NCBI GenBank assembly: GCA_029432815.1
Contig: JAROBA010000050.1
Span: 1 to 33,010 of the forward strand
Direction of reading: 5' to 3'
Length of the DNA stretch: 33,010 nt
From: Pontiellaceae bacterium B1224
GTDB lineage: Bacteria; Verrucomicrobiota; Kiritimatiellia; Kiritimatiellales; Pontiellaceae
Notes under the pieces: generated by a model
What the model was told of the DNA's origin: nothing
What the model saw: only the letters and a program-made list of their open reading frames with translations
Database searches by the model: none
In this document: positions 7,418 to 32,166 of the stretch, piece after piece
Position numbering within the stretch: position 1 is the first letter of the stretch
Layout of the letters: the number at the start of each line of letters is the position of its first letter
Translations under genes and position numbers: made by a program

Positions 7418-7420
7418 CTT

Positions 7421-13643: not shown

Positions 13644-15326
13644 ATGAGCGATTTGAAGATAAGCATTACACACCCGAGCCGCGGTCTCCAAACATTGGAA
13701 GCTCCGTATGGGGTGTATATGATCGGGTCTGATGCCTCCAACCGCATTGTGCTCGACGACGGCAGTGTGGAAGAAGCTCACGGCGTGCTGACGCTGATGG
13801 CGGATGAATCCTACATTGAAGATCTGATGGGCGGGGGCATCTTTGTCAACGGCGACCGGGTCATGAATCGGCAGCGCGTCTATCACGGTGCGCCCATTCA
13901 AATGGGCAACTACACCATTCTGTTCGGTACCGAAGCTGAACTTTCACCAGACAGCAAAGCCGAGCTCAAGGCTGTGCCGACTGCAGCAACCTCCCCCGAG
14001 CCGTTTAAACCGAATTCGGTCTCCCGCAACGTATCGGCCAGCCAGGCCGTGAAACAGCAGATCCATAGTGAACTGGTGGAACGTCTGGACCTGAAACGGC
14101 TCAGCATGAGCAAGCTGCAGCAGGATGAGCTGCAGAGCAAGATCCAGGCAACGCTTAAAGAAATTATCGAAGAAATCCAGGGGCGCCTCCCAGCCGGGTT
14201 AGAGCCGACCCGGCTGGCTAAAGAAATTTTTGATGAAGCGGTGGGCCTGGGTCCGCTGGAAGATTTGCTGGACGATGACTCCGTGACGGAAATCATGGTG
14301 AACGGGCCGTCACAGGTATATGTCGAGCGCGCCGGTAAACTGATTCTGACGGACTGCAGTTTTATTAACGACACCTCGGTGCATTCGGTGATTGAGCGGA
14401 TTGTATCGCCGATCGGACGCCGTATTGATGAAAGCCAGCCCTACGTGGATGCCCGTTTGGCAGATGGCTCGCGTGTGAATGCGATCATTCATCCGCTTTC
14501 CCTGATCGGGCCGTGCATCACGATTCGTAAATTTTCCAAAGATCCGTTCAAGGTGCAGGATTTGATCAATTTCGGGACGCTGACCCCGGATGTTGCTGAG
14601 TTCCTTCGCGTATGCGTGATGCTGCGCAAAAACATTATTGTTTCAGGTGGTACCGGATCCGGTAAAACCACACTGTTGAATGTACTTTCGAGCTATCTGC
14701 CCTCTGATGAGCGTATTCTGACTATTGAGGATGCGGCAGAACTTCGTTTGACGCAGGATCATATTATTCGTCTGGAAGCCCGCCCGGCCAATATTGAAGG
14801 GCGCGGCGCTGTCACGATTCGCGATCTGGTTAAAAATGCCTTGCGTATGCGCCCGGACCGTATTGTGGTCGGGGAGTGCCGTGGTTCTGAAGCGCTTGAC
14901 ATGCTGCAGGCCATGAACACAGGGCATGAAGGCTCGCTTACCACGATTCACGCCAACACCCCGCGCGATGCGCTGGCTCGTCTGGAAACCATGGTGCTGA
15001 TGGCCGGGATGGAATTGCCGGTGAAGGCAATTCGTGAGCAGGTCGGTTCGGCGGTGCATATGATCTGTCAGATTTCCCGTTTTTCCGATGGTTCACGTAA
15101 AGTGAGCAAGATTACTGAAGTGTCGGGCATGGAAGGCGACCGCCTGACACTGCAGGATATCTTCGATTTCAAACAGACGGGGCTCGATGATAACGGCAAG
15201 GTACTTGGCCAGCTTTTACCGACCGGTGCGGTTCCAACCTTTATTGAAGAAATCGCAGTGCGTGGGATTCCATTTGATCGAACGATTTTTGAAACACAGC
15301 ATGCCGGCGGGCAGTGGGGGAAATGA
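13644..15326 (+). CDS. cpaF: Tad secretion ATPase CpaF/TadA with N-terminal FHA domain
   Basis: 560 residues. Residues 1-100 form an FHA-like domain ([27 protein letters not shown] ... FVNGDRV), which usually binds phosphothreonine peptides. The rest is a CpaF-type ATPase: [14 protein letters not shown] Walker A (about residues 335-348), [13 protein letters not shown], the Asp box [12 protein letters not shown] and the His box [19 protein letters not shown]. It powers Flp pilin assembly at the inner membrane. The canonical FHA residues are partly degenerate (GS in place of GR). A one-mismatch palindrome at 13686-13700 encodes LQTLE in the FHA start. Its TGA overlaps the tadB ATG. Confidence 0.95.
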
Positions 15327-16201
15327 TGTTCTGGCTGATTCCATCTCTGTTTGCTTTGTGTGCCATTCTGATGGGGTATGTGGTTCTGTGTTCGCTTCGT
15401 GAAGCGGAAGAGAGTTATGCCAGTGAATACACCACTGATACCGCCCGGCAGTTCGAGGACCTGTTCCTGTTTATTTCGCCGGCACAGATGCTGAATGTAT
15501 CGCGCCTGTTAGCAATTATTGTTTTCTTCCTGCTCTTTTTTACAGCCGGAAATATTAATTCGGCGATGGGCTTTGTGAGCGGAACTTTTGTCGGAGCGCT
15601 GGGCGGAATGCTGGCTCTGTTCATGCCGCGGGTGATTCTACGGGTGCTGCGCATCCGAAGGTTGGAACGTTTTAACGCGCAGTTAGTGAATGCTCTGACC
15701 GGTATGAGCAATGCATTGAAAGCCGGCTTCAGCATTCAGCAGGCTTTTGAAGCCATTGTGAAAGAGCAGCAGAATCCGATTTCACAGGAGTTCGGTATGT
15801 TTCTACAACAGCTCCGCGTCGGTATGACCTTCGAAGAAGGCCTGGCGGATATGGACCGGCGGGTCGGCAGCGAAGACCTGACGCTCATGATCCAGTCGGT
15901 GGAGATTGCGCGCCAGACCGGGGGTAACCTGACCGAAGTATTCGACCGCATTGCGAATACCATTCGCGAGCGCCGGCGAATTGAAGGCAAGATTAAGTCG
16001 CTGACAGCCCAGGGCAAGATTCAGGGCAATGTGGTCGGGGCCATGCCGTTCGTACTCGGCTTTGCTATTTTTTTGCTGGATCCGGGCATGATGACCGCAT
16101 TTCTAAAATCGTATATAGGCATGATTATTATCGGGATGGTACTGGTGATGGTATCTCTGGGCATGGTGGTCATTCGAAAAATTGTAAATATTGACGTGTA
16201 G
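15323..16201 (+). CDS. tadB: Tad inner-membrane platform protein TadB
   Basis: 292 residues; ATG 15323 overlaps the cpaF stop (ATGA), with GGGGG just upstream. The topology is N-terminal helices, a cytoplasmic GspF/T2SSF domain and C-terminal helices. ALTGMSNALKAGFSIQQAFEAIVKEQQNPISQEF and VGSEDLTLMIQSVEIARQTGGNLTEVFDRIANTIRERRRIEGKIKSLTAQGK are textbook TadB segments. It forms the assembly platform with TadC under the CpaF ATPase. Confidence 0.93.
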   Translation: MMFWLIPSLFALCAILMGYVVLCSLREAEESYASEYTTDTARQFEDLFLFISPAQMLNVSRLLAIIVFFLLFFTAGNINSAMGFVSGTFVGALGGMLALFMPRVILRVLRIRRLERFNAQLVNALTGMSNALKAGFSIQQAFEAIVKEQQNPISQEFGMFLQQLRVGMTFEEGLADMDRRVGSEDLTLMIQSVEIARQTGGNLTEVFDRIANTIRERRRIEGKIKSLTAQGKIQGNVVGAMPFVLGFAIFLLDPGMMTAFLKSYIGMIIIGMVLVMVSLGMVVIRKIVNIDV

Positions 16202-16206
16202 GTAAA

Positions 16207-17136
16207 ATGACTACCCAAATTTTATTAATCAGTTCCATGTTCCTGCTGGCGGCGTTGATTATCGCCTGGCAGGTCATACGCACGGCACAGCACGTCACTT
16301 ATATTACGCTGGCGGACGGGCGCCGTCAGGAACGCAGTCTGCCGCTGCTGATTCGTTTGGTACTGCCCTTTTCCAGTGTGGTGCCCGCTTTTATTACCGA
16401 GCATAAATCGCTTGAAGAGAGTCGGCATCGCATTTCCAGAAAACTGATTGCCGGCGGCTACGAAGGGTTGATCGAGTCGCACGAAGTGATTTCGTTGCGC
16501 GTTATGATGCCGCTGGGTCTGGGCATCTTGCTGTGTGTGCTGCTGGGCTTTTCGTTCGGCAGCATGCCGCAGGGCATTGGGAAAATGATGGCTGAGCGAC
16601 AGTATCTTCTCTATATGATCATCCTCCTGCTGCTGGGTTTCTATCCGGATGCCTGGTTGAAGACATCGGTCAAACAGCGACACAAGAGTATCGAGCGGGC
16701 TCTGCCGTTTGTGCTCGATCTGCTGACGCTCTCCGTGGAATCCGGTCTCGATTTCATGACGGGGATTAACCGCATCATTCAATATCGAAAAATCGATCCG
16801 CTGGGAGAGGAGCTGATCCGCGTGTTCCGGGAAATTCAGGTGGGCCGCTCCCGGAAAGTAGCATTGCAGAATTTTTCGGAACGGATTAACCACACAGATA
16901 TCCGTTCCGTGACCAATGCGCTGGTTCAGGCCGACGAACTCGGCACGGGGATTGGAACCGCATTGCGCATTCAGTCGGACCAGATTCGTGTGAAACGTTT
17001 CCAGCGTGCGGAAAAACTGGGTAACGAAGCGCCGGTCAAAATGCTCTTCCCTTTGATTGCTTTCATTTTTCCGTCCGTATTTCTGATACTGTTGGGGCCG
17101 GTCATTCTTCAAATGATGATTCGCGGGGGATTTTAA
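16207..17136 (+). CDS. tadC: Tad inner-membrane platform protein TadC
   Basis: 309 residues. A GspF-like domain is seen in SIERALPFVLDLLTLSVESGLDFMTGINRIIQYRKIDPLGEELIRVFREIQVGRSRKVALQNFSERI and in ALVQADELGTGIGTALRIQSDQIRVKRFQRAEKLGNEAPVKMLFPLIAFIFPSVFLILLGPVI. Hydrophobic helices lie on both sides. It follows tadB by five bases. It pairs with TadB as the second half of the platform. Confidence 0.93.
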   Translation: MTTQILLISSMFLLAALIIAWQVIRTAQHVTYITLADGRRQERSLPLLIRLVLPFSSVVPAFITEHKSLEESRHRISRKLIAGGYEGLIESHEVISLRVMMPLGLGILLCVLLGFSFGSMPQGIGKMMAERQYLLYMIILLLLGFYPDAWLKTSVKQRHKSIERALPFVLDLLTLSVESGLDFMTGINRIIQYRKIDPLGEELIRVFREIQVGRSRKVALQNFSERINHTDIRSVTNALVQADELGTGIGTALRIQSDQIRVKRFQRAEKLGNEAPVKMLFPLIAFIFPSVFLILLGPVILQMMIRGGF

Positions 17137-17258
17137 GAAATTTTAGATTGCCGATTTTAGATTGATGATTTGTGGGTCTGCGTTCGCCTCGCAGGCAGTG
17201 TACTCAGGAAACAGACCCGACAATCAAAAATCAAAAATCAAAATTCAAAAATAGGTAA
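17136..17258. repeat. Inverted-repeat element built of degenerate heptamers
   Basis: The left arm is 7-bp periodic (GATTTTA, GATTGCC, GATTTTA, GATTGAT). The right arm repeats AATCAAA several times (17222-17251). The inner ends GGGTCTG (17174-17180) and CAGACCC (17212-17218) pair perfectly, and the AT-rich arms extend the pairing imperfectly, so the whole gap could fold into one long hairpin. It splits the Tad locus between tadC and the FHA membrane protein. Confidence 0.65.
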
Positions 17259-17261
17259 AAC

Positions 17262-18599
17262 ATGTCTCATTTAATAATAGAACAAGGCAAAGAGGTCGGC
17301 AAAGAAGTCGAGGTTCCTGCTGCGGGTATAAAGTTCGGCCGGTCGCCGGCCAACGATCTCGTGCTGGACGATGACGTTGCGATGCTCTTTCATGGCCGGT
17401 TTTTCTTTAAGTCCGACGGGACCCTCTGGGTAACTGATTTCGGGGCTGGAGAAAAAACCATGGTTGGCGGCAAGCCGGTCGACGAGCATCAGCTCAAAGC
17501 CGGCGATCTGGTGGAAGTGGGGAAGACCTCCTTTCGGATTATTAATGCAACAAAAGGCACCGGTGCTGAACCCGTCGCTGCCGCATCCAAAATGCCGAAA
17601 GAAGAGCCTGCGGCGGCACCGGACGGAGAAGATGACATTGATCTCGGGTTTAAGCGCGAGAAGCGTTCACGCAAAGCTCCGGAAAAAAAGGCGGAACATA
17701 AACCGGCTTCCATGACCTCTCGCCTTCTACAGGTCGCGGTCATTGTGTTAGTGCTGATTGTGCTGATGGTCGTAGGTCCTTCATTACTTGAAATGTCGAA
17801 TATGGGCGCAGATGTCGTTCAGCAGGAAGAATCCCTGACATTGTCTTATGAGCGGGTTGAGGGAACCACGGAAAATATTTTCCGCTATCATGTAGAGCTG
17901 AATGATCAGGGAATCTTCTCGGTTCGGATTGACGACCTGGCAACGGGAAGCCACCAGATAGAAAGTGAAGAGATTTCTCAATCCGTCATTGAGCAGCTTT
18001 CCCACGGGATTGCGTCGTCCGGGTTTTTTGATGTTGATTCCGATTTTGAAGGCACCGTGGAGAATCAGTACGACCTTTACGACATAGCCGTTCAGCGAAA
18101 CCGTCGGTTTCACCACGTTCAGGTATTGAACTGGACTCCGCCGCCGGCCATTGAGCGCACCACCGAACTGATTGAAGATTTTGCGCGCAGCGAACTGGGA
18201 ATCTCTTTCAACTGGATGAAGAGTCCCGAAGAACTCATGCTGCTTGCCGAACAGGCGGTGAAAATCGGCGAGGCACGCTTTGCCGAACGGGATGTACGCT
18301 ACAGCAATCTGGCAACGGCCATTGCCCAGTTCGAGGAAGCCAAGCTTTATCTGGAAATACGCGAGCCGAAGCCAGCTCTGTACCACCGTGCCAACGATCT
18401 TTTGGTTGCGGCAAAAGCCGAGCGGGATCTCCGCTATGATGATTACCTTTTCCGTGCCGATGGTGCCATCCGTCGAAAAGACTGGGATGAAGCGGCAAAA
18501 CATTTGAGAATTTTAAGCGAGCTGGTAACGGATCGGTCAGATCCGCGTTATGATAAAATACGCACCAAGCTCCTGAACGTTGAACAGCATTTGAGGTAG
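17262..18599 (+). CDS. FHA-domain single-pass membrane protein in the Tad locus
   Basis: 445 residues. Residues 1-95 are FHA-like (IKFGRSPANDLVLDDDVAMLFHGRFFF ... VGKTSFRI), keeping the GRS but with the later Ser and Asn positions altered. A charged linker follows (SRKAPEKKAEHK), then one transmembrane helix near residues 154-176 (LLQVAVIVLVLIVLMVVGPSLL). About 265 periplasmic residues remain, the last ~110 helical and TPR-like (LAEQAVKIGEARFAERDV..., AAKHLRILSEL). It may link cytoplasmic phosphorylation signals or the FHA-CpaF ATPase to the periplasmic part of the pilus. It precedes the PEGA lipoprotein by six bases. Confidence 0.7.
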   Translation: MSHLIIEQGKEVGKEVEVPAAGIKFGRSPANDLVLDDDVAMLFHGRFFFKSDGTLWVTDFGAGEKTMVGGKPVDEHQLKAGDLVEVGKTSFRIINATKGTGAEPVAAASKMPKEEPAAAPDGEDDIDLGFKREKRSRKAPEKKAEHKPASMTSRLLQVAVIVLVLIVLMVVGPSLLEMSNMGADVVQQEESLTLSYERVEGTTENIFRYHVELNDQGIFSVRIDDLATGSHQIESEEISQSVIEQLSHGIASSGFFDVDSDFEGTVENQYDLYDIAVQRNRRFHHVQVLNWTPPPAIERTTELIEDFARSELGISFNWMKSPEELMLLAEQAVKIGEARFAERDVRYSNLATAIAQFEEAKLYLEIREPKPALYHRANDLLVAAKAERDLRYDDYLFRADGAIRRKDWDEAAKHLRILSELVTDRSDPRYDKIRTKLLNVEQHLR

Positions 18600-18600
18600 G

Positions 18601-18615
18601 ATCCAATGATTGGAA
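18601..18615. repeat. Near-copy of the dispersed palindrome over a start codon
   Basis: ATCCAATGATTGGAA differs from the consensus at the first base. Its centre contains the ATG (18606-18608) of the PEGA lipoprotein gene, so a protein or hairpin there could affect initiation. Confidence 0.6.
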
Positions 18616-20018
18616 GAATTAGCCACATGAAACGATCGGCCGCGGCCGTACTGCTGACGATGCTTTCGTTTGCGTTCCTGACCGGATGCAACCTCGAAAC
18701 GCCGGCCGGGAAAGGGTCCATCACGATCAAGTCGAACCCTGACGGCGCTGCAGTTCTAGTGAATGGAACCCCTCGGGGAACGGCTCCGGTCACCATTTCC
18801 GGGTTGGTTGCCGGCGACTATATTATTGAACTCCGGAAGGATGGGTTTGAACGGGCCTATAAAAGTGTCAGCCTGCTCGAAGGGCAGGTGATGGACGTGG
18901 ACCTCAAGATGAAGCCGATCACCGGGCTGTTGCTGGTGGATTCCAATCCACAGGGAGCGGAGGTAGTGATTGAGGGGATTTCCAAAGGAGACACGCCGCT
19001 ACTGCTGACGGACCTTCCGTTGGGTGAATTCTCATTAGAGTTCCGGTCCATGAAGCATCTTCCGCGAACGCTGAAAGTCAATGTGACAGATCGGACCCCG
19101 GTGCGGGCTTTTGCCGAACTGGTCTCCAATACAGCCCAGTTGAAAGTCAGCTCGGATCCGGGAGAAGCTTCGGTCAGTATCAACGGAATAGCTGTAGGAA
19201 AAACGCCGATTACTGTTGAAGAGGTTGAAGCCGGTGAGGCTGAAGTTCGGGTATCTAAACGAGGTTATATACCGTTTGTGTCTAAGATAAATTTCGAAGC
19301 ACAGAAGCCGTACAGTATAGAAGCTAAACTCGAATCATTACCATCGGGTCTCAGTGTGCTGTCAACTCCGGAGGGTGCAAAGGTCTTGATCGACCGGGTC
19401 TCTGTTGGAAAAACACCCCTGAATCTGAAGGATTTAAAAATCGGCCCACATGAAGTGACCGTTTCGCTGGAGGGGTACTCCACGAAGACCAAAACCATCT
19501 ATTTAGAGCCCGATACAAATGACAGTGTCGAGTTCGATATGGAGAAGAACAGCGGAACCTTGGTAATTGATACCGAGCCGGCCGGTGTTCAGGTTTATGT
19601 GGATGGAAAGTTATTCACGACCACGCAGCCGAAGGGAGGATCGGAAGCGATTTCCCAACCGATTCGGATTACGCTGAAATCGGGCGAAGACCATATTTTG
19701 CAACTGGTGCGGGAAGGATATGTTTCGCATACCACCTCAATCCAGACGGAAGTCGATCAGGTCGTCACCCGGCATCTGGTGCTGAAGCGCATCTTCGTCT
19801 ACGACACAAAAATTACGACGAACGATGAAATCATCAAGTGCCGGATAGAATACACGTTGCCGAACGGAAATATTTACTACGAACGGTTCCCCGGGGTTTT
19901 CTACACCGCCAAAGCGGAAAACATCCGTAAGGTCGAGCCCATCTCTTTGGACGATGAAAGCAATCGGGACGCCCGTCGTTTAATCGAAATGAATCGGGAA
20001 GCGGTTCCGGCCGAATAG
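18606..20018 (+). CDS. PEGA-repeat lipoprotein
   Basis: 470 residues. The signal peptide is KRSAAAVLLTMLSFAFLTGC with lipobox LTGC, so it is probably lipid-anchored. Five PEGA-type beta repeats follow (about residues 38-85, 101-145, 178-220, 245-290 and 315-375), each with a NPDGAxVxVNGxxxGxTP-like turn and ending in GY or GF. PEGA domains are small surface modules often found with secretion or pilus machinery. The extreme C-terminus is a separate short domain (FVYDTKITTNDEIIKC). ATG 18606 sits in a dispersed palindrome; ATG 18627 (MKRSA) is the alternative start. It is the last gene of the Tad locus, ending at the palindromic terminator. Confidence 0.85.
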   Translation: MIGRISHMKRSAAAVLLTMLSFAFLTGCNLETPAGKGSITIKSNPDGAAVLVNGTPRGTAPVTISGLVAGDYIIELRKDGFERAYKSVSLLEGQVMDVDLKMKPITGLLLVDSNPQGAEVVIEGISKGDTPLLLTDLPLGEFSLEFRSMKHLPRTLKVNVTDRTPVRAFAELVSNTAQLKVSSDPGEASVSINGIAVGKTPITVEEVEAGEAEVRVSKRGYIPFVSKINFEAQKPYSIEAKLESLPSGLSVLSTPEGAKVLIDRVSVGKTPLNLKDLKIGPHEVTVSLEGYSTKTKTIYLEPDTNDSVEFDMEKNSGTLVIDTEPAGVQVYVDGKLFTTTQPKGGSEAISQPIRITLKSGEDHILQLVREGYVSHTTSIQTEVDQVVTRHLVLKRIFVYDTKITTNDEIIKCRIEYTLPNGNIYYERFPGVFYTAKAENIRKVEPISLDDESNRDARRLIEMNREAVPAE

Positions 20019-20079
20019 TTCCAATCATTGGAACGTACGATTTCCAACCATTGGAATTTTCCAATGGTTGGATTTTTTT
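20019..20079 (+). terminator. Tad-locus terminator made of three dispersed palindromes
   Basis: TTCCAATCATTGGAA (20019-20033) starts directly after the stop codon. TTCCAACCATTGGAA (20042-20056) and TTCCAATGGTTGGA (20059-20072) are inverted relative to each other. The arms from 20043 and 20059 pair over 14 bases with a two-base spacer, and a seven-T run (20073-20079) follows. The palindrome family has thus been built into a strong intrinsic terminator, whose T run ends in the stop codon of the convergent gene. Confidence 0.85.
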
Positions 20080-20413
20080 AGTCCAGAGAAAGTGAATCGC
20101 CCACTTCAACGGGGTCGAGTACCCCCGTTGCTGTTTCAAGTACAGAGTGGGTTTTTCCGGGGGCAAACGCCAGCTGCCATGGTTTCAGGTTGCGGGAAAT
20201 CTTGAGTACCCGCAGTTCGGTATCCAGAAAAGCGGCATCGATGGGGAAGCGCATAAACCACATGTGAATACTCCGGCAGGGCCGGATGAGCATGGCCGTG
20301 TTCCGGTCCAGACTGGCGCGCCCGAGCAGGCCTTTCATGCGTTCGGGTGTGGTCTCGGCAAGGAGGAGGTGTTCCACCAGCTCAAAGCCCTCTTTCATCA
20401 AAATGCGTGACAT
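20078..20413 (-). CDS. DUF192 family protein
   Basis: 111 residues. ERMKGLLGRASLDRNTAMLIRPCRSIHMWFMRFPIDAAFLDTELRVLKISRNLKPWQ carries the DUF192 pattern (R.xGLMxR, HMxFMxFPID, V). The W.AAxxVLE-like end is represented by KTHSVLETATGVLDPVEVGD. Function is unknown across the family; many members are small periplasmic proteins, but no signal peptide is visible here. It is convergent with the Tad locus and divergent from yicC. Confidence 0.85.
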   Translation of the reverse strand: MSRILMKEGFELVEHLLLAETTPERMKGLLGRASLDRNTAMLIRPCRSIHMWFMRFPIDAAFLDTELRVLKISRNLKPWQLAFAPGKTHSVLETATGVLDPVEVGDSLSLD

Positions 20414-20418
20414 ATTCC

Positions 20419-20480
20419 CTCAAATCCTAAATCCTGTTTGTCGATTTAAATTTGAGTTTCAGGTTTCAGGTTTCAGGTTA
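20419..20480. repeat. Inverted repeat and TTTCAGG heptamer array
   Basis: CTCAAATCCTAAATC (20419-20433) is nearly complementary to GATTTAAATTTGAG (20443-20456) across a nine-base loop. Directly after it, TTTCAGG is repeated exactly three times (20457-20477). The element fills the divergent gap between DUF192 and yicC, so it sits where both promoters must lie. Confidence 0.75.
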
Positions 20481-20491
20481 CAAGGACAATT

Positions 20492-21373
20492 ATGGCACTT
20501 AAAAGTATGACAGGTTTTGGCGAAGGCGCCGCATCGGCATCCGGCATCCGGGTATCGGCGGAGTTGAGCTCTGTAAACCGCAAGCAGCTCGACATCAATA
20601 TCAACCTTCCGCGGAATCTGGTCACACTGGATGCTCAGGTTCAAAGTAAAGTCCGTGCCGAATTTTCGCGCGGGCGCGTCTCGGGAATCATTCGGGTGGA
20701 AGCGGCCGATGGTTCCATCGGTTCCGTGGTGCTGAATGCAGATCTTGCCGCGCAATATATCGTGCACCTTCGTTCCACCGCACAGAAACTGAACCTGCCG
20801 GATGATCTCGGAGCCGACTGCCTCACCCGCCTTTCCGGCGTAACAAGCATTGAACAGCATGACCTGAATGCCGATCATGTTTCCGCCGTGCTGGAGGAGG
20901 CGCTCGATAACGCCCTCAAAGGCCTCGCAAAAATGCGCGCCACGGAAGGTAAGGCGCTGGAGAAAGACTTGCGCGCGCGGATTACCCTGCTCGATCAGTC
21001 GGTTAAGGAAATCCGAAAGCAGGCTCCGTCCGTGGTGGTTGCGTATCGGGAAAAATTGTTCCAACGTCTGGAAGAGGCCGGTCTTGAAGATCTCGCATCC
21101 GATGAGCGGGTCGTGAAAGAAGTCGCCATCTTTGCCGACCGTTGCGATATCAGCGAAGAGCTCACCCGGCTGAAAAGTCATCTGGCGCAGGCCCGCAAAC
21201 TGCTGCGTTCAGACGAGCCGGTGGGTCGTACGCTGGATTTTCTGTGTCAGGAGCTGTTCCGCGAAATTAACACCGTGGGTTCAAAAGCCAACGAAGTGGA
21301 AATTACGCGGCTGGTGGTTGCATTTAAAACCGAGCTCGAACGAATTCGCGAGCAGGTTCAGAATATTGAGTAA
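20492..21373 (+). CDS. yicC: YicC/YloC family endoribonuclease
   Basis: 293 residues. MALKSMTGFGEGAA is the hallmark YicC start (KSMTGFG), and VELRSVNxRxLDI appears as AELSSVNRKQLDINI. The C-terminus, RTLDFLCQELFREINTVGSKANEVEITRLVVAFKTELERIREQVQNIE, is the conserved end (GKxLDFLxQEMxREINTxGSKA). Some YicC proteins have endoribonuclease activity; the general role is still debated. The ribosome site AAGGA lies eight bases before ATG 20492. An exact palindrome at 21059-21073 encodes FQRLE. gmk follows by 18 bases, the common yicC-gmk order. Confidence 0.95.
   Translation: MALKSMTGFGEGAASASGIRVSAELSSVNRKQLDININLPRNLVTLDAQVQSKVRAEFSRGRVSGIIRVEAADGSIGSVVLNADLAAQYIVHLRSTAQKLNLPDDLGADCLTRLSGVTSIEQHDLNADHVSAVLEEALDNALKGLAKMRATEGKALEKDLRARITLLDQSVKEIRKQAPSVVVAYREKLFQRLEEAGLEDLASDERVVKEVAIFADRCDISEELTRLKSHLAQARKLLRSDEPVGRTLDFLCQELFREINTVGSKANEVEITRLVVAFKTELERIREQVQNIE
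21059..21073. repeat. Dispersed palindrome copy in yicC
   Basis: TTCCAACGTCTGGAA is exact, in phase, and encodes FQRLE (residues 190-194) in a helical, charged region. Confidence 0.75.
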
Positions 21374-21391
21374 GATGGGCAGGTATTAAAA

Positions 21392-22042
21392 GTGGAAGAT
21401 AAGAAGCATCGTTTAATTGAACAAGAACCGCAGGTGGTATCCCGCCCATCGCGACCGCTGATGATTGTCGTGTCTGCGCCTTCCGGCTGTGGGAAAAGCA
21501 CCCTGTGCGATCGACTGGTGGATGAATTTCCCCGCATCACCTATTCCGTTTCCTGCACGACGCGGGAACCGCGCGGCGAGGAAAAGGATGGAGTTCACTA
21601 CTTCTTTCTCTCGAAGAAGGAGTTCAAGGAACGAATCAAAAACGGTGAGTTCCTGGAATGGGCCAAGGTGCACGGAAACTATTACGGCACGCTGGAAGAC
21701 ACCGTTCTCTTTGCAATGGAGGAGGGGAGTCATGTGCTGCTCGATATTGATGTGCAGGGCGCCAAACAACTGCGGGAATCGCTGATTAAGTTGGATATGC
21801 GGCATCCGATCCGCCGCGGCTTTACCGATATTTTCATCTCTCCACCTTCCCTGGAAGAGCTGGAGAAACGCTTGCGCGGACGCGGAACCGATGAGGAGAA
21901 GGTCATTCAGAAGCGGTTGGCCAATGCGGCCTCCGAAATGGAATCCGCCAACGAATATACCTTCCAGATCGTTAACGATGATCTGGAGAAAGCCTATCAC
22001 GAACTTAAGACCGTCATCCTATCCGGTCTTGGGCTCGGCTGA
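21392..22042 (+). CDS. gmk: Guanylate kinase
   Basis: 216 residues. It phosphorylates GMP to GDP using ATP. MIVVSAPSGCGKSTLC is the P-loop, YSVSCTTREPRGEEKDGVHYFFLSKKEF the GMP-binding segment, and GNYYGTLEDTV and LLDIDVQGAKQLRE are standard. IFISPPSLEELEKRLRGRGTDEE is the lid region. GTG 21392 is used because no ATG lies before the P-loop except one at its start, which would trim the fold. A ~22-residue N-terminal extension results. It converges with the SLC12-like gene. Confidence 0.95.
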   Translation: MEDKKHRLIEQEPQVVSRPSRPLMIVVSAPSGCGKSTLCDRLVDEFPRITYSVSCTTREPRGEEKDGVHYFFLSKKEFKERIKNGEFLEWAKVHGNYYGTLEDTVLFAMEEGSHVLLDIDVQGAKQLRESLIKLDMRHPIRRGFTDIFISPPSLEELEKRLRGRGTDEEKVIQKRLANAASEMESANEYTFQIVNDDLEKAYHELKTVILSGLGLG

Positions 22043-22061
22043 AATTGACCATGGAACTCTA

Positions 22062-22087
22062 AACTTCGAACAGCCAGTTTCGAAGTT
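22062..22087. terminator. Bidirectional hairpin between convergent gmk and the transporter gene
   Basis: AACTTCGAA (22062-22070) pairs perfectly with TTCGAAGTT (22079-22087) across eight bases. Only a weak T-rich stretch follows (CTATTTTA). Its place between converging genes supports a shared terminator. Confidence 0.5.
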
Positions 22088-22099
22088 CCCGATTCTATT

Positions 22100-24331
22100 T
22101 TACACCCGCTCTGAGATACCGATGACTCTTCGGAATTCGATGGCTTCGGCCGCCAGCACAAACGCAAGTGGCGGCATTTCTTTGGAGGCTTCCATCAGGT
22201 TGCCGTAATACCGGCCGTATTCTTCATGGGTTTCATCTTCGTTCGGCGGGCGCATGCCCATGAAAACGAGTCCGGCCTCGGTAGAGGACTTGCGGATCAT
22301 ATCGTAAAAGCTCGGCAGGTCTTTAATGAGTACATCGGCTACTGCCGGAATGCGCTGCTCTTCAATAAAGTTTTCGAGCCGTTCTTTTGCGGCATCCCGT
22401 TCGTCTTCCGTATCCACAATCGTTTTAAGAATGAGTTTCGACTGTTTCCAGACCGGACTCTTCTGAATCTGGTAGGCCAGCGTCAGGATTAAACCGATAT
22501 TATCTTTATTGCCGCCCCACCAGACGTGGATCTCTTCGGCTTCCTCGCTGAGCTTTATTTCACTTTCCCGCAACATGATCAGATTGCGCTGGGTGCGATA
22601 CACCAGCTGGATCAGCTCGGCAAAGTCGCTGAAGTTGGAACGATCTTCTGTATCTCCCAGTAGAATCGTATTCGGTACCAGCGGACCGTAGCCATAGGCG
22701 CGAACCAAAGCTTTTGCGCCGGATAGCATATTGGGCGAGGGGAAGATTTTGACCATGGCATCCACCTCCCGTTTCTCGAGATATTCGCGCATGGACGTTT
22801 CCATACTCTGGACTTTTTCGGCCGACCAGTCTTCCACGGGCAGGATGCTCGCCACCGTCAACGCACTGCTGTGCTGGGTCAGCGAATGGGCCATTTCCAC
22901 CAGATGCCAGCGCGATTTCGGCGACCCGCTCAGAGCCATGATGTTTGGCCTCCACGTGCGTTCGTCCGGTTTGAGTTTATTCAAGCGGTGAATGGCAAAA
23001 CGGACCAGCAGGGTGAGAATGCCGTAGCGCATGTCGATCCAGTGCGCATTCAGTCGGCGGCGCTTGACGAGATAAAATACAATGCTGATCGTGGTGATGG
23101 CCACGAGCGTGGCACCGGCGTCGATCATGAGCATCACCGTGAAGCACCCGGCTGCTCCGAGCAGGGAAATGCCGTAATGCACTTTAAATTTCGGCCGCCA
23201 CGACGGGCTTTCAATCAGGCCTTCGAGCCCGGCGGAAAGGTTAAGCAGGCCGTACGAGGTTAGGAAAAACATGGAGAGAATCGGGGCAATCAGATTGAGG
23301 TCGCCCAGCAGAACGGCCGCCATGGCCACGGCAAATGAGATGGCGGTGGCAATGCGCGGGTCGGCTTTATCCTTACCGTATCCCCGGCCGATAAAGCGCG
23401 GGATGATCCGGTCGTGGGCCAGCGCCTGCAACATGCGCGGAGCACCGAGCAACGAGCCGAGCGCGCTGGAAAGAGATGCCGCAAACACCCCGGCCACAAT
23501 GAGCGAACCCCAGCGGGCAATGGAACTCAGAATGTTGAGATCAACCAACAGGATATCGGAATTGTGCACTTTGGCAGAAATGAAGATCGGCAGAATCATA
23601 TAAACCACGTAGCCCACAATAACTGCGGCGAGTGTACCCAGCGGCAGCGATTTTGCAGGATTTTTCAGGTCGCCCGACAGGCCGAGCCCGGCCTCGATTC
23701 CGGTCACTGCCGGGAAGAATACCGCGAAGACCACCCAGAAACTGGCCTTGGGCGGTATGAGCGTTCCTGCGGGAACGGCCACATCGGCCATGTCTGGATT
23801 GCCCATAAAGAGAGAAACCAGTGAGGCACCAATGGCGACAAAAATGAGGAACTGGACCTTCAGCGCTAAGTCGGCGGAGATATAGGCCAGTGCCGTCAGG
23901 GCAATCAGTGTGGCCGCCGAAATTACTTTGGCGGCAATGGCCGGGTCGAGCATGGGAAGCGGGTTGACCACGGCCATTAGGGCTTCAGAAAAACCGGCCA
24001 CATAAAACGCCACGCCGAAGGCCCTCGCAAAAAACAGGGGGAGGCCGATGGCCACGCCGGCCTCCAGACCAAGCGATCGCGAAATGATATAATACGCCCC
24101 GCCGGTGCCGACTTTCATATTGGTCGCCATGGCCGAGATGGAGAGTGCGGTGAAAAACGTGATGGAGGTGGCAATCGTGACAATCAACAACGTGGCCGGA
24201 AGCCCGACGTTACCCAGCACCCAACCGAAGCGCAGATACATGATCACGCCGAAAATCGTTAGAATGCTCGGAGTGAAAACCCCTTTAAACGTTCCAAACG
24301 CATAGCCCTGTTTTTCGATTTGTTCGCCCAT
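22100..24331 (-). CDS. SLC12-type (cation-chloride cotransporter-like) APC permease
   Basis: 743 residues. GVFTPSILTIFGVIMYLRFGWVLGNVGL (about residues 18-45) and KVGTGGAYYIISRSLGLEAGVAIGLPLFFARAFGVAFYV are the core of bacterial Na-K-Cl cotransporter-like APC proteins. Roughly twelve hydrophobic segments run to about residue 415. The soluble C-terminal ~300 residues (ALSGSPKSRWHLVEMAHSL ... GLVFMGMRPP) match the SLC12 C-terminal domain. Substrate is unknown: ion/chloride or amino acid. It is the last gene of the minus-strand transport array. The start lies just after a near-palindrome (24351-24337) whose GAGG may serve as the ribosome site. Confidence 0.85.
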   Translation of the reverse strand: MGEQIEKQGYAFGTFKGVFTPSILTIFGVIMYLRFGWVLGNVGLPATLLIVTIATSITFFTALSISAMATNMKVGTGGAYYIISRSLGLEAGVAIGLPLFFARAFGVAFYVAGFSEALMAVVNPLPMLDPAIAAKVISAATLIALTALAYISADLALKVQFLIFVAIGASLVSLFMGNPDMADVAVPAGTLIPPKASFWVVFAVFFPAVTGIEAGLGLSGDLKNPAKSLPLGTLAAVIVGYVVYMILPIFISAKVHNSDILLVDLNILSSIARWGSLIVAGVFAASLSSALGSLLGAPRMLQALAHDRIIPRFIGRGYGKDKADPRIATAISFAVAMAAVLLGDLNLIAPILSMFFLTSYGLLNLSAGLEGLIESPSWRPKFKVHYGISLLGAAGCFTVMLMIDAGATLVAITTISIVFYLVKRRRLNAHWIDMRYGILTLLVRFAIHRLNKLKPDERTWRPNIMALSGSPKSRWHLVEMAHSLTQHSSALTVASILPVEDWSAEKVQSMETSMREYLEKREVDAMVKIFPSPNMLSGAKALVRAYGYGPLVPNTILLGDTEDRSNFSDFAELIQLVYRTQRNLIMLRESEIKLSEEAEEIHVWWGGNKDNIGLILTLAYQIQKSPVWKQSKLILKTIVDTEDERDAAKERLENFIEEQRIPAVADVLIKDLPSFYDMIRKSSTEAGLVFMGMRPPNEDETHEEYGRYYGNLMEASKEMPPLAFVLAAEAIEFRRVIGISERV

Positions 24332-24336
24332 ATTTT

Positions 24337-24384
24337 TTCCAACCTCTGGATCTGAATTTCCGCGGATGGTTCCAGACCTTGGAA
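24337..24384. repeat. Two dispersed palindromes between the MATE and SLC12-like genes
   Basis: TTCCAGACCTTGGAA (24370-24384) is exact. TTCCAACCTCTGGAT (24337-24351) has one mismatch and, on the minus strand, ends six bases before the SLC12-like start codon with GAGG inside it. Confidence 0.75.
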
Positions 24385-24397
24385 CAAAAGGGAAGCT

Positions 24398-25720
24398 CTA
24401 TCGGAGCTGTCTGCGCGCGATGAAATAGGCGTTTGTGCCGGAGAGCAGATTGCCGGTTGTAATGCCGCCGACGAGCCCGTAGAACCCGAAGAGATGACTG
24501 CCGAACAGACTGAGCGGAATGATGAAAAGGAACACGCGGCAGAGGTTGATGGCCATGACGGGGCGGGGTTTCCCGATGACATTCAGCATTTGACTCGTCC
24601 ACATACTCGTGAGTAGGCCCGTCATGCCGAGGGTGGCAATAATCAGATAGGCCGAGCTCATCCGGATCACTTCGGGGTCGTGACTGAACAGGCTGGAAAG
24701 CGGTCGCGCTGTGGGGAGCAGAATGAGCAGAATAATGCCTGAATAAATGAAAGACAGCCGGTTACTGATTCGACAGGTTTCCTGCACACGGTGGTGGGCC
24801 TCTGCGCCATAGTTGTGGCCAACGAAGGGGACCAGCGCAATGCCGTATGAAATGGCAATGAGCAGAAGAAAGGCTTCGATGCGCGTTCCGGTGGCCATGG
24901 CCGCAACGGCCTGCACGCCGCCAGCGCCGGCGGCCAGGCGAATGTAAACTCCCTGTGCAATCGGGTTGAGGGCCTGTGTCAGCGCGGCCGGAATGCCCAG
25001 CCGTATAATTTCTTTCCACGAGCGAAGCAGTTCCGTGATGTGCGGGCGGGTCCAGTCGATCAGCTGATGTTTGAAATGCAGGAAGCTCAGCGAGGCCGTC
25101 ATGGCAACAATACGTGCAATGATGGTGGCCAGTGCAGCACCCTGCATTCCCATGCTTGGAAAGGGGCCCCAACCGAAAATCAGAATCGGATCAAGAATGA
25201 TGTTCATAATGGCGGCAACGCACATGACGATCATCGGGCGTTTAACATCGCCGGCCGCACGCAGGCAGCCGTCGCTGACGGGAGGCATAATGGCGGCCAC
25301 CGCGCCGATATACCAGATGGCCATGTAGTCCTTCACTAAATTCAGAATATGCCCTTCAGCCCCGAGTAGACTGAAGAGCGGGGTCATGGTCAGCAGGCCA
25401 ACAACGCTGACGATCAGCGTACCGGCAATGGTCAGGGTGATGCCGTCCGAAACCGTGCGGGCTGCGAGGGTTTTATTGCCGGCACCGAGTGCGCGGGTGA
25501 TGATGGATGCCGCTCCTGATGAAAAGCCGATGGCCAGCGAGCCGACAATCATCACCACCGCAAAGGTGAATCCCATCGCCGCCAGCTCGTCGGTCCCAAG
25601 CCGGGAGACAAACCAGGTGTCGGTTAGGTTGAACACCATGATGGCAAACATGCCTCCAATGCTTGGAAGCGTCAGCCGGGTGAGGTGTTTTAAAACACTG
25701 CCTTTAAGAAGATGGCTCAT
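24398..25720 (-). CDS. MATE family efflux pump
   Basis: 440 residues, the usual MATE length, with twelve hydrophobic segments. LTLPSIGGMFAIMVFNLTDTWFVSRLGTDELAAMGFTFAV (residues 16-55) and a matching mid-protein LGIPAALTQALNPIAQGVYIRLAAGAGG give the twofold MatE domains. It probably exports cationic drugs or metabolites using Na+ or H+. It lies 60 bp downstream of the RND pump gene in the same direction. Two near-palindromes are in the coding sequence (25654-25668, LPSIG; 25147-25161, FPSMG). Confidence 0.92.
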   Translation of the reverse strand: MSHLLKGSVLKHLTRLTLPSIGGMFAIMVFNLTDTWFVSRLGTDELAAMGFTFAVVMIVGSLAIGFSSGAASIITRALGAGNKTLAARTVSDGITLTIAGTLIVSVVGLLTMTPLFSLLGAEGHILNLVKDYMAIWYIGAVAAIMPPVSDGCLRAAGDVKRPMIVMCVAAIMNIILDPILIFGWGPFPSMGMQGAALATIIARIVAMTASLSFLHFKHQLIDWTRPHITELLRSWKEIIRLGIPAALTQALNPIAQGVYIRLAAGAGGVQAVAAMATGTRIEAFLLLIAISYGIALVPFVGHNYGAEAHHRVQETCRISNRLSFIYSGIILLILLPTARPLSSLFSHDPEVIRMSSAYLIIATLGMTGLLTSMWTSQMLNVIGKPRPVMAINLCRVFLFIIPLSLFGSHLFGFYGLVGGITTGNLLSGTNAYFIARRQLR

Positions 25721-25725
25721 GATAG

Positions 25726-25780
25726 ACGTGACAAGTGACCCGTGAAACGTGACCGAAAATCAGGCCTCACGTATCAATCG
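25726..25780. repeat. Heptamer array between RND and MATE genes
   Basis: Four degenerate 7-bp units, ACGTGAC, AAGTGAC, CCGTGAA and ACGTGAC (25726-25753), are followed by roughly complementary units in inverse order (TCACGTA, TCAATCG, TTACG, to 25785). The gap could fold imperfectly between the two pump genes. Confidence 0.6.
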
Positions 25781-28700
25781 TTACGCTTTGCCTTTAAACA
25801 GTCGGCCGATGTCTTCGAGGATCATGATCAGCGAAGGGATCAGAATGAGGGTAATGCCGGTGGCGAACAGGATGCCGAACCCGAGCGAGATGGCCATTGG
25901 AATCAAGAACCGCGCTTGGCGCGACGTTTCGAGAATCATCGGCATCAGCCCGAAGAAGGTTGTGAGGGTGGTCAGGATGATCGGCCGGAAGCGCTGAATA
26001 CCCGAGGCCAATACCGCGTCGTGCATATCCATTCCTTCCCGTCGTTTCTGGTTGGCGAAGTCGATGAATACCAACGAGTCGTTCACCACCACACCGGAGA
26101 GAGCCACTACACCGAACAGGCTCATCAGACTGAGCGTATATCCCAGCAGGAGATGGCCCGCCACGGCTCCGACGACCCCGAACGGGATCGAGACCATAAT
26201 GATCATGGGTTGCCAGTAGCTTTTGAAGGGAATGGCCAGCAAGACATAAATCATGATGAGTGCGGTAAGCAGTCCGGTAATAAGTCCGCCGACGCTTTCG
26301 CGCTGATCGGCCTGGCGTCCTTCAAAGGAATAGGAAAGTCCACTGTGTCGTTGCATCAGATCGGGGAGAATCTCATGGGTCAGGACGGTCAGCATCTGCG
26401 GCACCTGATCACGTGGTTTAATGTCGGAAGAAACCGTTATTACGCGGCGTCCATCGCGCCGGCTGATAGTGGTATACGCTCGGCCGCGCTCTATGTTCAC
26501 GACTTCCCGCAGGGGAACCTCGGTTCCTGCAGGAGTGCGCACAATCATTTCCTCCAGACTGAACTCCGTATCGCGTTCCACTTCCGGCAGGCGCACCATC
26601 ACCTTGATCTCGTTGCGGCCCCGCTGCTGACGGATTGCTTCCGAGCCGTAGTAGGAGTTCCGAACCTGCCGCGCAATTTCGGTGGAGGTCAGCCCCAGGC
26701 TGCGACCTTCATCATTAATCGAAAAGTCGATCTGTGGTTTGCCGGGCGTGAAGCCGTCGTCGATATCGAGCACCATGGGATAGGCGCTTAGTGCTTCCGC
26801 CAATTCTTTGCTGGCCACTTCCAGAACATTCATATCACGATGGGAAAGATCCACCGTCAAGGCATCGGACCCGCCGCCCGGACCACCGGAGTCGGCGCGG
26901 AAGCGAATGTTTTTTAGTCCACTGATCGATCCGGTGGCTTCGCGCCAGCGGTCGGCAAATTTCTGAGTGGAAAGGGGGCGGCTGTCGGCATCAAGCAGTT
27001 CATAGGAAATGTTTGCCACATGGCCACCGGACGGGCCGCTGCGGCTGGCAGCACCAATGGTTGAGATGACGCCTTTCACGATGGGCTTGCCATACTCTGC
27101 TTCAATTTCCGCAATCACTTTTTCACCGGCGGCCATCACCCGGTCATGCACCTTCTGTGTGTTTTCCACCGGTGCGCCGTAGGGCAGGGTGAAGCTGCAC
27201 ATGGCAATATCGGATTCCACGCTGGGAAACAGTTCAAAACCCATGCGTCCGCTTTTCACATAGCCGAGCGTTACAATCAGAACCACGATGCCAATGCTGA
27301 GCGTGATATAGCGGAAGTGCAGCACCTGATCCAGAAACGGGCCGTAGATATCCCGGACAAAATGAGTAAACTTCTGGCTGAACCGCTGCTGCAGCCGATG
27401 CAGCATATGCGGGTTCTTAAGATCTTTCTGATGCGCCAGATGGGCGGGCAGAATATAGAGTGCTTCCACGAGGGAAATGAGGAATGTTGTGCACACAATC
27501 AGCGGAATATGCCGGAAGAATTTACCCATCACACCCGGCACAAAATAGAGCGGCATGAAGGCAACAATGTTGGTGAGAATACTGAAGGTGACCGGCACGG
27601 CAATCTGACGGGCGCCCGCAATCGCCGCCTGTATGAACGGCATGCCGTCCTGATGTTTGTGGTAAATATTTTCACCCACTACAATGGCGTCATCCACCAC
27701 AATCCCCAGCGCAATCAGAAACGCAAACATGGTGATCATGTTCAGGCTCACATCCATCGGCCCCATGAAGAGGAAGGTGCCGAGAAAGGAAATCGGAATA
27801 CCCAGCATCACCCAGAAGGCCAGCCGCATTTCCAGAAAAAGACCGAGCAGAACGAAAACCAGTACGAGGCCCATGGCGCCGTTTTTCAGGAGCAGATTCA
27901 TGCGGCCGCGGAACGAGTCTGCCCGATTGTTCCAAAGGGTGAAATCCACGCCGTCCGGCATGGTGGCCTCCAGTTCTTCCAGCACGCCGATCACAGCTTG
28001 TTCGACAGAGATCGGCGTCTCTTTTCCCACCCGGTAGGCCGTCATGGTCATGGCCGGCTTCCCGTTGAAATAGGTGAATTTATCCGACTCGTCAAAGTTG
28101 TCGCGGATCTCCGCAATATCCTCCAGCAGCACGCGTGTTCCATCGGTGGTGGTGATGATAGGAATATTTTCAAATTCACGGCCGAGATCGCGGCGGTCTT
28201 TCACGCGTACGAGAATTTCGCCGGACGTAGTTTTCATGCCGCCGCCCGGAAGTTCCACGGAGCTGCGTGAAATAATATCCGAAACATCCTGCAGCGATAA
28301 ATTGAGTTCGCGCAGTTTGGCCTGCGGAATTTCAATGGCAATTTCGTAGCTCCGAACATTGGAAAGTTCCAGCTGGGTCACTCCTTTGGAAGCCAGCAGG
28401 GCATCGCGTGTTTGTTCGGTCAGCTCGCGCAGTACTGTTTCGGAAACATCGGCTGAAACAATAATATCCATCACCGATCGGGTTAAGGTGGCCGCACTGA
28501 TGACGGGTTCTTCTGCATCGAGCGGGAAGGTGCGAATACGATCCACCTGATTGCGCACGTCGTCCGTAACAATGTTGACGTTGTATCCTTCCAGAATATC
28601 AACAGAGACCGTTCCGCTGCCCTCATTCGCATCGGAGTATACCTTTTTCACCCCGTCAATGCCGCGCACCGCTTCTTCGATGGCGAGCAGAATGCCCTGT

Positions 28701-28903
28701 TCCACTTCCTGCGGGCTGGCACCGGGATAGGATACACTGATGTTCACAAAGTCCATTTGGGCCTGCGGCAGAAACTCCTGCTTAATCTGCGTGGCTGCAA
28801 AAATACCGCCGCCCAGCAGAACCACCATCAGGATATTGGCTGCGACGATGTTGTTGGCCATCCATGCAATCGGGCCGCGCTTCTGTTCTAAATCAGTTGT
28901 CAT
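25781..28903 (-). CDS. RND efflux pump inner-membrane subunit (AcrB/HAE1-like)
   Basis: 1040 residues, the normal RND size. The N-terminal helix is NIVAANILMVVLLGGGIFA, followed by the porter domain (VSYPGASPQEVEQGILLAIEEAVRGIDGVKKVYS). ALGIVVDDAIVVGENI (TM4) carries the proton-relay Asp pair. GVVALSGVVVNDSLVFIDFANQKRREG is the equivalent TM10 segment. Twelve transmembrane helices and two periplasmic loops form the homotrimeric drug/proton antiporter. Substrate is not predictable. It follows the adaptor gene by 33 bp, with a one-mismatch palindrome at 28919-28905 ending one base before its ATG. Confidence 0.95.
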   Translation of the reverse strand: MTTDLEQKRGPIAWMANNIVAANILMVVLLGGGIFAATQIKQEFLPQAQMDFVNISVSYPGASPQEVEQGILLAIEEAVRGIDGVKKVYSDANEGSGTVSVDILEGYNVNIVTDDVRNQVDRIRTFPLDAEEPVISAATLTRSVMDIIVSADVSETVLRELTEQTRDALLASKGVTQLELSNVRSYEIAIEIPQAKLRELNLSLQDVSDIISRSSVELPGGGMKTTSGEILVRVKDRRDLGREFENIPIITTTDGTRVLLEDIAEIRDNFDESDKFTYFNGKPAMTMTAYRVGKETPISVEQAVIGVLEELEATMPDGVDFTLWNNRADSFRGRMNLLLKNGAMGLVLVFVLLGLFLEMRLAFWVMLGIPISFLGTFLFMGPMDVSLNMITMFAFLIALGIVVDDAIVVGENIYHKHQDGMPFIQAAIAGARQIAVPVTFSILTNIVAFMPLYFVPGVMGKFFRHIPLIVCTTFLISLVEALYILPAHLAHQKDLKNPHMLHRLQQRFSQKFTHFVRDIYGPFLDQVLHFRYITLSIGIVVLIVTLGYVKSGRMGFELFPSVESDIAMCSFTLPYGAPVENTQKVHDRVMAAGEKVIAEIEAEYGKPIVKGVISTIGAASRSGPSGGHVANISYELLDADSRPLSTQKFADRWREATGSISGLKNIRFRADSGGPGGGSDALTVDLSHRDMNVLEVASKELAEALSAYPMVLDIDDGFTPGKPQIDFSINDEGRSLGLTSTEIARQVRNSYYGSEAIRQQRGRNEIKVMVRLPEVERDTEFSLEEMIVRTPAGTEVPLREVVNIERGRAYTTISRRDGRRVITVSSDIKPRDQVPQMLTVLTHEILPDLMQRHSGLSYSFEGRQADQRESVGGLITGLLTALIMIYVLLAIPFKSYWQPMIIMVSIPFGVVGAVAGHLLLGYTLSLMSLFGVVALSGVVVNDSLVFIDFANQKRREGMDMHDAVLASGIQRFRPIILTTLTTFFGLMPMILETSRQARFLIPMAISLGFGILFATGITLILIPSLIMILEDIGRLFKGKA

Positions 28904-28904
28904 T

Positions 28905-28919
28905 TTCCAAGCCTCGGAA
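28905..28919. repeat. Near-palindrome at the RND pump ribosome site
   Basis: On the minus strand TTCCGAGGCTTGGAA ends one base before the ATG. Its GAGG lies eight bases from that ATG, a good Shine-Dalgarno position. It has one mismatch to the consensus. Confidence 0.65.
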
Positions 28920-28936
28920 ATCAGTTTCGATGAAAA

Positions 28937-30088
28937 TTATTTATTGGTTTCTGCAGGCGTGCCCGTGTTCACATCCATTTCGTTAATCGGGGTGTTGATA
29001 TCCGAAATGATGATTTGATCGCCGTTATTCAAACCGTCGCGAAAGAGAACCTGATCGGCATCGCGCCAGAGCACTTCAACCTCGCGGATTGCCAGTTTCT
29101 GATCGTCGGTGGCAATCCACACCACGGAGCCTTCCCGCAGTGAATTACGCGGAATGGAAAAGACCTCTTCAAGTTCGGTTCCATCGATGATCGTCTGCAC
29201 AAATTCGCCGAGCAGCAGCGGTTTCTTATCGGCATTTTCCGGTGTTAAACAGAGCGGGTCTTTCACCTCAACCAGCAGGCGCGCCATGCGTCCCTTCTCT
29301 TCAAGACTACCCATGAGTTTAATCACAGTGCCCGTGCGAACCGCACCGCTCATCGATTGAATTTCAACCGAGCTTCCGGGAATGGTGACCCAGCTCAATC
29401 GATCAACCGGAATGGAAATGGTAATCCAGTAGGCATCGGTTCCAATGAGCTCTCCGAGTTGGGAGGTCAGGTTGGCCTGCGAACCGATATTGACATTTCG
29501 GTCCAGCACCAGCGCATTGAACGGGGCGGTGAGTTCCGTGCGCTCCAGATTAACCTGCGCTCGTTTTAGAGCCGCTTCCGCCGCTTTCAATGCGGCTTCA
29601 TCGGCGGCAAGGTGCGGTTTGCGCAACGCGAGTTCCTTTTCGAGGTCGGACGCATCGTCATACTTCAGCAATTCCCATTCGCGTTTAGCCACTTCCTGTC
29701 GCCCGAGCTCCTGTTTGTAGGAAAATCGTGCCGTCTCCAGTTTTGATTCTGCATCGGCCAGCGCGAGTTCATAGTCCACCGGATCGATGGTCAGAATCGA
29801 TTCGCCCTTTTTCAGTATTCCTCCGTCAATAAAGTTCGGCGACATGGAAACCACTTCGCCGGAAATACGCGATTGCAACTGAATCAATTCCGCCGGGGTG
29901 ACGGTTCCCGTGAGCTGCAGCTGCACAACTTCGGTGGTGGCCATCAGGGTCTGGGTTTCCACCAGCGGGGCCATTTTCGGCGGCACCTTTTTTTCAGCTT
30001 TCGGGGCGCTGGCAATGAGCACTTTTGCGATGACAATACCGCCGACAATCAATACAACACAGATGATGGCTTTAAGAAGTTTAGACAT
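28937..30088 (-). CDS. RND periplasmic adaptor (membrane fusion protein)
   Basis: 383 residues. An N-terminal helix (LLKAIICVVLIVGGIVIAKVLIA) anchors it. RISGEVVSMSPNFIDGGILKKGESILTIDPVDYELALADAESKL is the lipoyl half-motif leading into a helical hairpin (about residues 105-195). NLERTELTAPFNALVLDRNVNIGSQA is the second lipoyl half. A beta-barrel and membrane-proximal domain complete it. It bridges the RND pump and the outer-membrane channel. Its ATG lies two bases after the stop of the channel gene. Confidence 0.93.
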   Translation of the reverse strand: MSKLLKAIICVVLIVGGIVIAKVLIASAPKAEKKVPPKMAPLVETQTLMATTEVVQLQLTGTVTPAELIQLQSRISGEVVSMSPNFIDGGILKKGESILTIDPVDYELALADAESKLETARFSYKQELGRQEVAKREWELLKYDDASDLEKELALRKPHLAADEAALKAAEAALKRAQVNLERTELTAPFNALVLDRNVNIGSQANLTSQLGELIGTDAYWITISIPVDRLSWVTIPGSSVEIQSMSGAVRTGTVIKLMGSLEEKGRMARLLVEVKDPLCLTPENADKKPLLLGEFVQTIIDGTELEEVFSIPRNSLREGSVVWIATDDQKLAIREVEVLWRDADQVLFRDGLNNGDQIIISDINTPINEMDVNTGTPAETNK

Positions 30089-30090
30089 GG

Positions 30091-32153: not shown

Positions 32154-32166
32154 AATTGAAACGCCG

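Follow-up and report, generated by a model that had tools for sequence, protein, structure and literature searches.

The convergent junction between a PEGA-domain gene and a DUF192 gene of Pontiellaceae bacterium B1224 carries, at 20042 to 20079 of the 33,010-nucleotide stretch of contig JAROBA010000050.1 analysed here (the window), a sequence for which predicted structure and compensatory conservation provide good evidence of a conserved intrinsic terminator, assembled from two adjacent copies of a short palindrome. The palindrome unit, TTCCA-RNSNY-TGGAA, is abundant far beyond chance, and we lean, without great confidence, towards a two-layered view of the junction, in which the sequence would act as a terminator for the PEGA gene and the palindrome would primarily be a double-stranded DNA site for a putative dimeric protein.

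The two genes (Pfam) and the palindrome copies of the window considered below are placed as follows:

18601 to 18615, unstranded: palindrome copy with one mismatch, spanning the PEGA start codon; intact in B12219
18606 to 20018, plus strand: PEGA-domain protein gene with stop codon TAG (ORF list, Pfam), putatively ended by the terminator
20019 to 20033, unstranded: third palindrome copy, TTCCAATCATTGGAA, abutting the TAG of the PEGA gene
20042 to 20056, plus strand: palindrome copy TTCCAACCATTGGAA, 5' arm of the terminator hairpin
20059 to 20073, plus strand: palindrome copy TTCCAATGGTTGGAT, 3' arm of the terminator hairpin
20073 to 20079, plus strand: terminator T tract of seven T, its end overlapping the DUF192 stop codon; kept in B12219 and B12227
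20078 to 20413, minus strand: DUF192 gene, convergent with the PEGA gene (ORF list, Pfam)
24337 to 24384, unstranded: two copies 33 bp apart between two minus-strand genes; the second unchanged in B12219 and L105
30681 to 30744, unstranded: three copies, 18 and 31 bp apart, within a coding sequence

Inspection of the sequence agrees with the preliminary description on the positions of the three copies at the junction, on the 14-bp complementarity and on the seven T. Upstream of the PEGA gene lie genes for a TadE-like protein (9346 to 10011) and an FHA-domain protein (17262 to 18599; both by Pfam), and the terminator may close a putative Tad-pilus-type gene cluster.

Positions 20043 to 20056 are complementary to 20059 to 20072 over 14 bp with 2 nt in between, and the RNA is predicted to form a hairpin of 13 closed pairs around a 4-nt loop (-21.8 kcal/mol, z -6.35), a stability equalled by 0 of 200 shuffles. 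This stable, GC-containing hairpin is followed directly by the T tract, as expected of an intrinsic terminator, and its 13-pair stem is the longest among 20 terminator-like sites found in a scan of 15001 to 33010. The unit is its own reverse complement except at the centre; hence the head-to-head placement of the two copies in the preliminary description holds for their complementary centres (CCA versus TGG) only, since the rest of the unit is self-complementary and gives the arms no orientation.

Comparison with relatives bears on the same point. The product of the gene that we take to be yicC (the adjoining gmk is confirmed by Pfam) is 87% identical to that of Pontiellaceae bacterium B12219 and 85% to that of B12227, the nearest named relatives, which would place the genome in Kiritimatiellales. 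At the same junction, both retain a hairpin of 12-13 pairs and the T tract. The centres, CCA/TGG in the window, read CCT/AGG in B12227, where one pair is G-U, and in B12219 the pairing is retained with G-U pairs plus an inner mismatch. Compensatory change thus preserves pairing in the relatives, a pattern expected of an intrinsic terminator, and because these two genomes keep both hairpin and T tract in this way we accept the element as one, in line with the earlier proposal that the pair terminates transcription. The third copy, which abuts the stop codon, has degenerated in B12219 and is lost in B12227, and therefore falls outside the conserved terminator. No such pair is seen upstream of yicC in Pontiella sulfatireligans (L113) or the other relatives compared.

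In the 5.38 Mb genome as a whole, the strict form of the palindrome, TTCCAANNNTTGGAA, occurs in 1,177 exact copies as against 0 for a reversed-pattern control, and a looser form, TTCCANNNNNTGGAA, in 2,237 copies as against 3; the control count was 0 or near 0 in every genome checked. The window alone has 30 matches at two or fewer mismatches; 100 shuffles average 2.26 and never exceed 7. The spacing of the half-sites is sharply fixed, with 461 at 5 bp and 0-6 at any of the other spacings between 0 and 15. About 94-98% of copies have G or C as the central base, the most frequent variant replaces A by G at the inner position of the arm, and an outer T/A extends the dyad to 15-17 bp, placing information outside the arms. 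An Rfam scan of the window gave 0 matches; in the open-access literature, spelled-out forms of the motif and the combination of Kiritimatiellota with "palindromic repeat" each retrieved 0 papers, and no description of the motif was recognised by titles and abstract starts.

The genomic setting of the copies was analysed in a 993 kb sample, made up of the window and 48 further stretches of 20 kb each, with twelve short contigs left out; genes were called by a simple hexamer script rather than a standard gene finder, and the coding and intergenic counts are accordingly approximate. Predicted coding sequence holds 137 of the 235 strict copies, distributed over the three frames as 55, 55 and 27, and the remaining 98 lie in the non-coding 12% of the sample, a roughly five-fold enrichment. 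Intergenic copies are found within 25 bp of stop codons 2.15 times as often as expected (39 vs 18). Their density is highest between divergent genes, at 1.25 per kb, compared with 0.84 between convergent ones, and within genes it is 0.235 and 0.265 per kb in the lower two GC quartiles and 0.392 and 0.340 in the upper two.

Conservation of the parts of the unit was measured at orthologous sites. Across 15 sites aligned with B12219, identity is 94% in the arms, 76% in the centre and 78% in the flanks, a difference matched by 0 of 5,000 random draws; across 7 sites in B12227 the corresponding values are 93, 63 and 79% (p 0.019), and across 9 sites in the more distant L105 they are 66, 49 and 61%, which is not significant (p 0.24). 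At 13 of the 15 sites the alignment with B12219 is gap-free, and it is thus mostly by substitution, not by insertion, that copies are kept or lost.

Terminators built from paired copies are real but few. In the sample, neighbouring pairs with a gap of 25 bp or less number 62 as against 14 expected under a Poisson model, and only 3 of the 62 have complementary centres. A palindrome copy lies within 115 nt of 136 of 829 gene ends; terminators are predicted at 109 of these 829, and 12 of the 109 overlap a copy, yet the two-copy construction is seen only in the window's own. T tracts after copies near stop codons are similarly rare on the sense (5/126) and antisense (2/126) sides. Across the order, 18 pairs followed by T5, counted regardless of gene ends, occur in 9 of 43 genomes, four of them in B1224; other paired copies, whose absence would have counted against the preliminary description, thus exist, 17 of them besides the one at hand. 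All five centre positions can pair in 9 of the 18 (7 with Watson-Crick pairs only), compared with 2 of 29 close pairs that lack the T tract in the sampled stretches of the order (Fisher p 0.0012, or 0.006 on dropping the window pair and one pair letter-identical to that of B12227). Hence, the earlier suggestion that inverted pairs serve as terminators is supported for the pair at hand and a few similar ones but not as a general use, and pair-type terminators would be an occasional second use of the palindrome.

The motif has a patchy distribution. Among 288 genomes surveyed across the phylum, many families of the class have TTCCAANSNTTGGAA in abundance, as in G054 (1,319), G103 (830) and G125 (459), and others have a count of zero; in the other classes it never exceeds 4 among the rows inspected. 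Within the single family f11, genus g17 is motif-rich and genus g18 is without the motif. Likewise, in the window's own genus the looser form has 2,237-2,297 copies in the B1224 genome and G016, and 5-20 in G003, G010, G015, G018, G019 and G022. The sites in these six low-copy genomes were examined for a regulator beside a possible ancestral site; most look like fortuitous matches whose centres are atypical, and no neighbouring gene stood out as shared.

Where copies are close together, their spacing in the relatives follows the turn of the helix. In G040, from another genus of the same family, all 50 of the pairs listed are 21-22, 30-32 or 42 bp apart from start to start, i.e., two to four helical turns, and the 78 pairs listed for seven further genomes of the class are without exception at 22 or 30-32 bp, i.e., two or three turns; the total of close pairs is 356 in G040 and reaches 1,219 in G344. 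Longer arrays extend the pattern, as in G125, with successive spacings of 22/30/31/31/31/22. The spacers of phased pairs look unrelated, and their centres are complementary in 9 of the 42 pairs listed for G103, G054 and G153, at a shuffle mean of 9.2. Phasing is weak in the B1224 genome itself, where 16 of the 25 pairs listed keep to the phase, the expectation being 32% (p 0.0011, for phase windows set post hoc), and where spacings of 17 and 28 bp, both off phase, are seen repeatedly; the terminator pair, at 17 bp start to start, is itself off phase. The combination of a fixed half-site spacing with integer-turn spacing between sites, weak as the latter is in B1224, is that of a cooperative dimer operator array.

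Four phage-type contigs also carry pairs, at 21, 31 or 32 bp, and in two of them an array begins 2-5 bases past the end of an ORF. Pfam searches of ten proteins from the array-bearing phage-type contigs identified Clp protease, terminase and a Mu-type portal, and no obvious DNA binder. In the phage-type contig L240 (3429 to 3505), three copies 31 bp apart lie in what is by eye an open frame, so that each would be read in a different frame, which suggests that selection there acts on DNA, not protein. Separately, a sheep-rumen Kiritimatiellae record (L132, 20.9 kb, 69% GC) has six copies at 3531 to 3671, spaced 22/30/22/30/22, whose A-rich spacers make the array an AT-rich island.

In the two-layered view, the palindrome would be the double-stranded recognition site of a dimeric protein, with half-sites one helical turn apart; neighbouring dimers would lie on the same face of the helix, two or three turns from each other, probably cooperating, and the sites might form an architectural, nucleoid-type array along the chromosome. 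A dimeric reader of double-stranded DNA with contacts between neighbours is proposed because the half-site spacing is fixed and the sites are helically phased. At gene ends where two copies came to be neighbours, complementary centres and a T tract could have been retained by selection as a secondary use; at the PEGA gene, the nascent RNA would fold the two adjacent copies into one hairpin of 13-14 bp followed by seven U. The exclusive enrichment of the 5 bp half-site spacing, the better conservation of the arms than of flanks and centre in B12219, the phased pairs of the relatives with their unrelated spacers, the reversed-pattern counts at or near 0, and the presence of copies in all three coding frames as well as between genes favor a protein site. 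On the other side stand the weak phasing in the own genome, the 17 and 28 bp spacings, the off-phase position of the terminator pair itself and the arms in L105; additionally, it would be unusual for the sites of a core architectural protein to vary in number, among genomes of a single class, between none and more than a thousand.

NrdR has a different consensus and few sites per genome, and an architectural protein is favored over an NrdR-like regulator because the unit is far more abundant than such a regulator would lead one to expect, at hundreds to over a thousand per genome. The geometry is nonetheless alike: PMC12051234 describes two palindromic NrdR boxes, separated by 15-16 bp, whose centres are about three helical turns apart and which are bound in helix phase; the spacing is that of the palindrome pairs at 31-32 bp.

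By analogy with Neisseria and Pasteurellaceae, the palindrome could instead serve natural transformation as a DNA uptake sequence, a word that marks DNA as the cell's own and whose close pairs double as terminators, which we consider unlikely. The copy number, strict or loose, falls in the range of hundreds to thousands expected of DUS and USS, and the intergenic excess alongside many genic copies, the conservation of orthologous sites by substitution, the patchy spread, the existence of a few pair terminators and the lower density in low-GC genes are all in keeping with it. The search for competence genes urged in the preliminary description did locate ComEC in the B1224 genome, but it is equally found in 139 of 146 genomes of the class, motif-free ones included, and a search of the motif-rich G153 did not find it; since ComEC is present regardless of the motif, competence genes carry no weight for or against uptake. 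Under an uptake role one would not expect the phased pairs and arrays of the relatives. Phage-type contigs, too, carry arrays. To our knowledge, helical phasing of copies is not a feature of DUS or USS. For these systems PMC2397512 reports an abundant short word and close pairs forming Rho-independent terminators, and the likeness lies in the abundance and, for a few pairs, in the terminators; the Kiritimatiellia unit differs in being itself palindromic, in having few pair terminators (18 in 43 genomes) and in the helical phasing of the relatives' copies.

It is more doubtful still that the unit is a HIP1-like palindrome, maintained by an orphan DNA methyltransferase or by repair enzymes linked to it. 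The unit is hyperabundant both inside and outside coding DNA, and a single substitution predominates at the inner position of the arm; these traits would fit, as would gain and loss among related genomes, which PMC4390886 describes by lineage for the hyperabundant cyanobacterial palindrome. HIP1 is, in contrast, an 8-bp word tied to methyltransferases, while the present unit has a variable centre, a strict half-site spacing, information outside the arms and phased pairs that such maintenance leaves unexplained. Its dyad of 15-17 bp is long for a methyltransferase site.

That the palindrome is a REP/BIME-type element, with a REP-associated tyrosine transposase as the agent of its spread, appears very improbable. 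The abundance, the regularly spaced palindromes in arrays and the excess near stop codons do resemble REP/BIME elements, characterised in PMC2817692 as abundant palindromes that are often regular in spacing and often near gene ends, and Y1_Tnp is present in 125 of 146 genomes of the class. This origin is disfavored, however, because the Y1 transposase was not found in four pair-bearing genomes, G322 (77 pairs), G184 (90), G091 (16) and G324 (5), which are 87-96% complete. Further, the gap-free alignments show no insertion signature, spacers differ and centres vary, and over half of the strict copies are coding rather than extragenic as REP elements would be.

That RNA hairpins are the main role, whether as terminators or as 3'-end stabilisers, is likewise highly unlikely. 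A single copy can fold as RNA (-7.3 kcal/mol), some predicted terminators overlap a copy, and two phage-type contigs place arrays just past an ORF end; yet a hairpin would tolerate other loop lengths whereas only the 5 bp spacing is enriched, the density peaks between divergent and not convergent genes, the sense-strand excess of T tracts is not clear, and helical phasing is a property of DNA. Three further candidates were rejected: a xenogeneic silencer by the lower density in low-GC genes, REPIN-like hairpin units by the chance-level complementarity of phased-pair centres and the unrelated-looking spacers, and amino-acid-driven repeats by the use of all three frames and the frame shift that a 31-bp spacing entails.

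Extending the protein-site reading from the junction to the class, we regard it as possible, though only tentatively so, that Kiritimatiellia possess a chromosome-wide architecture of up to over a thousand palindromic sites per genome, located in and between genes and in phages and set in pairs or arrays at two or three turns for a putative cooperative DNA-binding protein, with adjacent sites recruited as terminators at some gene ends. If true, this would amount to a dense, phased, protein-readable chromosomal grid in a bacterial class, distinct from HIP1, REP and uptake sequences. The terminator would illustrate a route, exaptation, by which such a grid could feed gene expression, and the system would open to testing a long-standing question, the reason for which some genomes retain thousands of copies of one short palindrome.

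Certain other features of the window and of a relative may be recorded. A PaaX-family regulator gene (6548 to 7372, minus strand) is flanked by 44-bp near-palindromes at 6515 to 6558 and 7377 to 7420, which are 84% complementary to each other and unrelated to the main palindrome; they are perhaps operators for the regulator itself or the termini of a mobile unit. In the class relative G156, ComEC reads through three in-frame TAG codons (C1:1409676-1410500) and a Y1 transposase through one (C1:1893839-1894171), which hints at TAG recoding. Finally, a repeat of 300-342 bp occurs four times in tandem at 264 to 1589 of the window, within one long ORF (228 to 2036) that probably encodes a repeat-domain surface protein.
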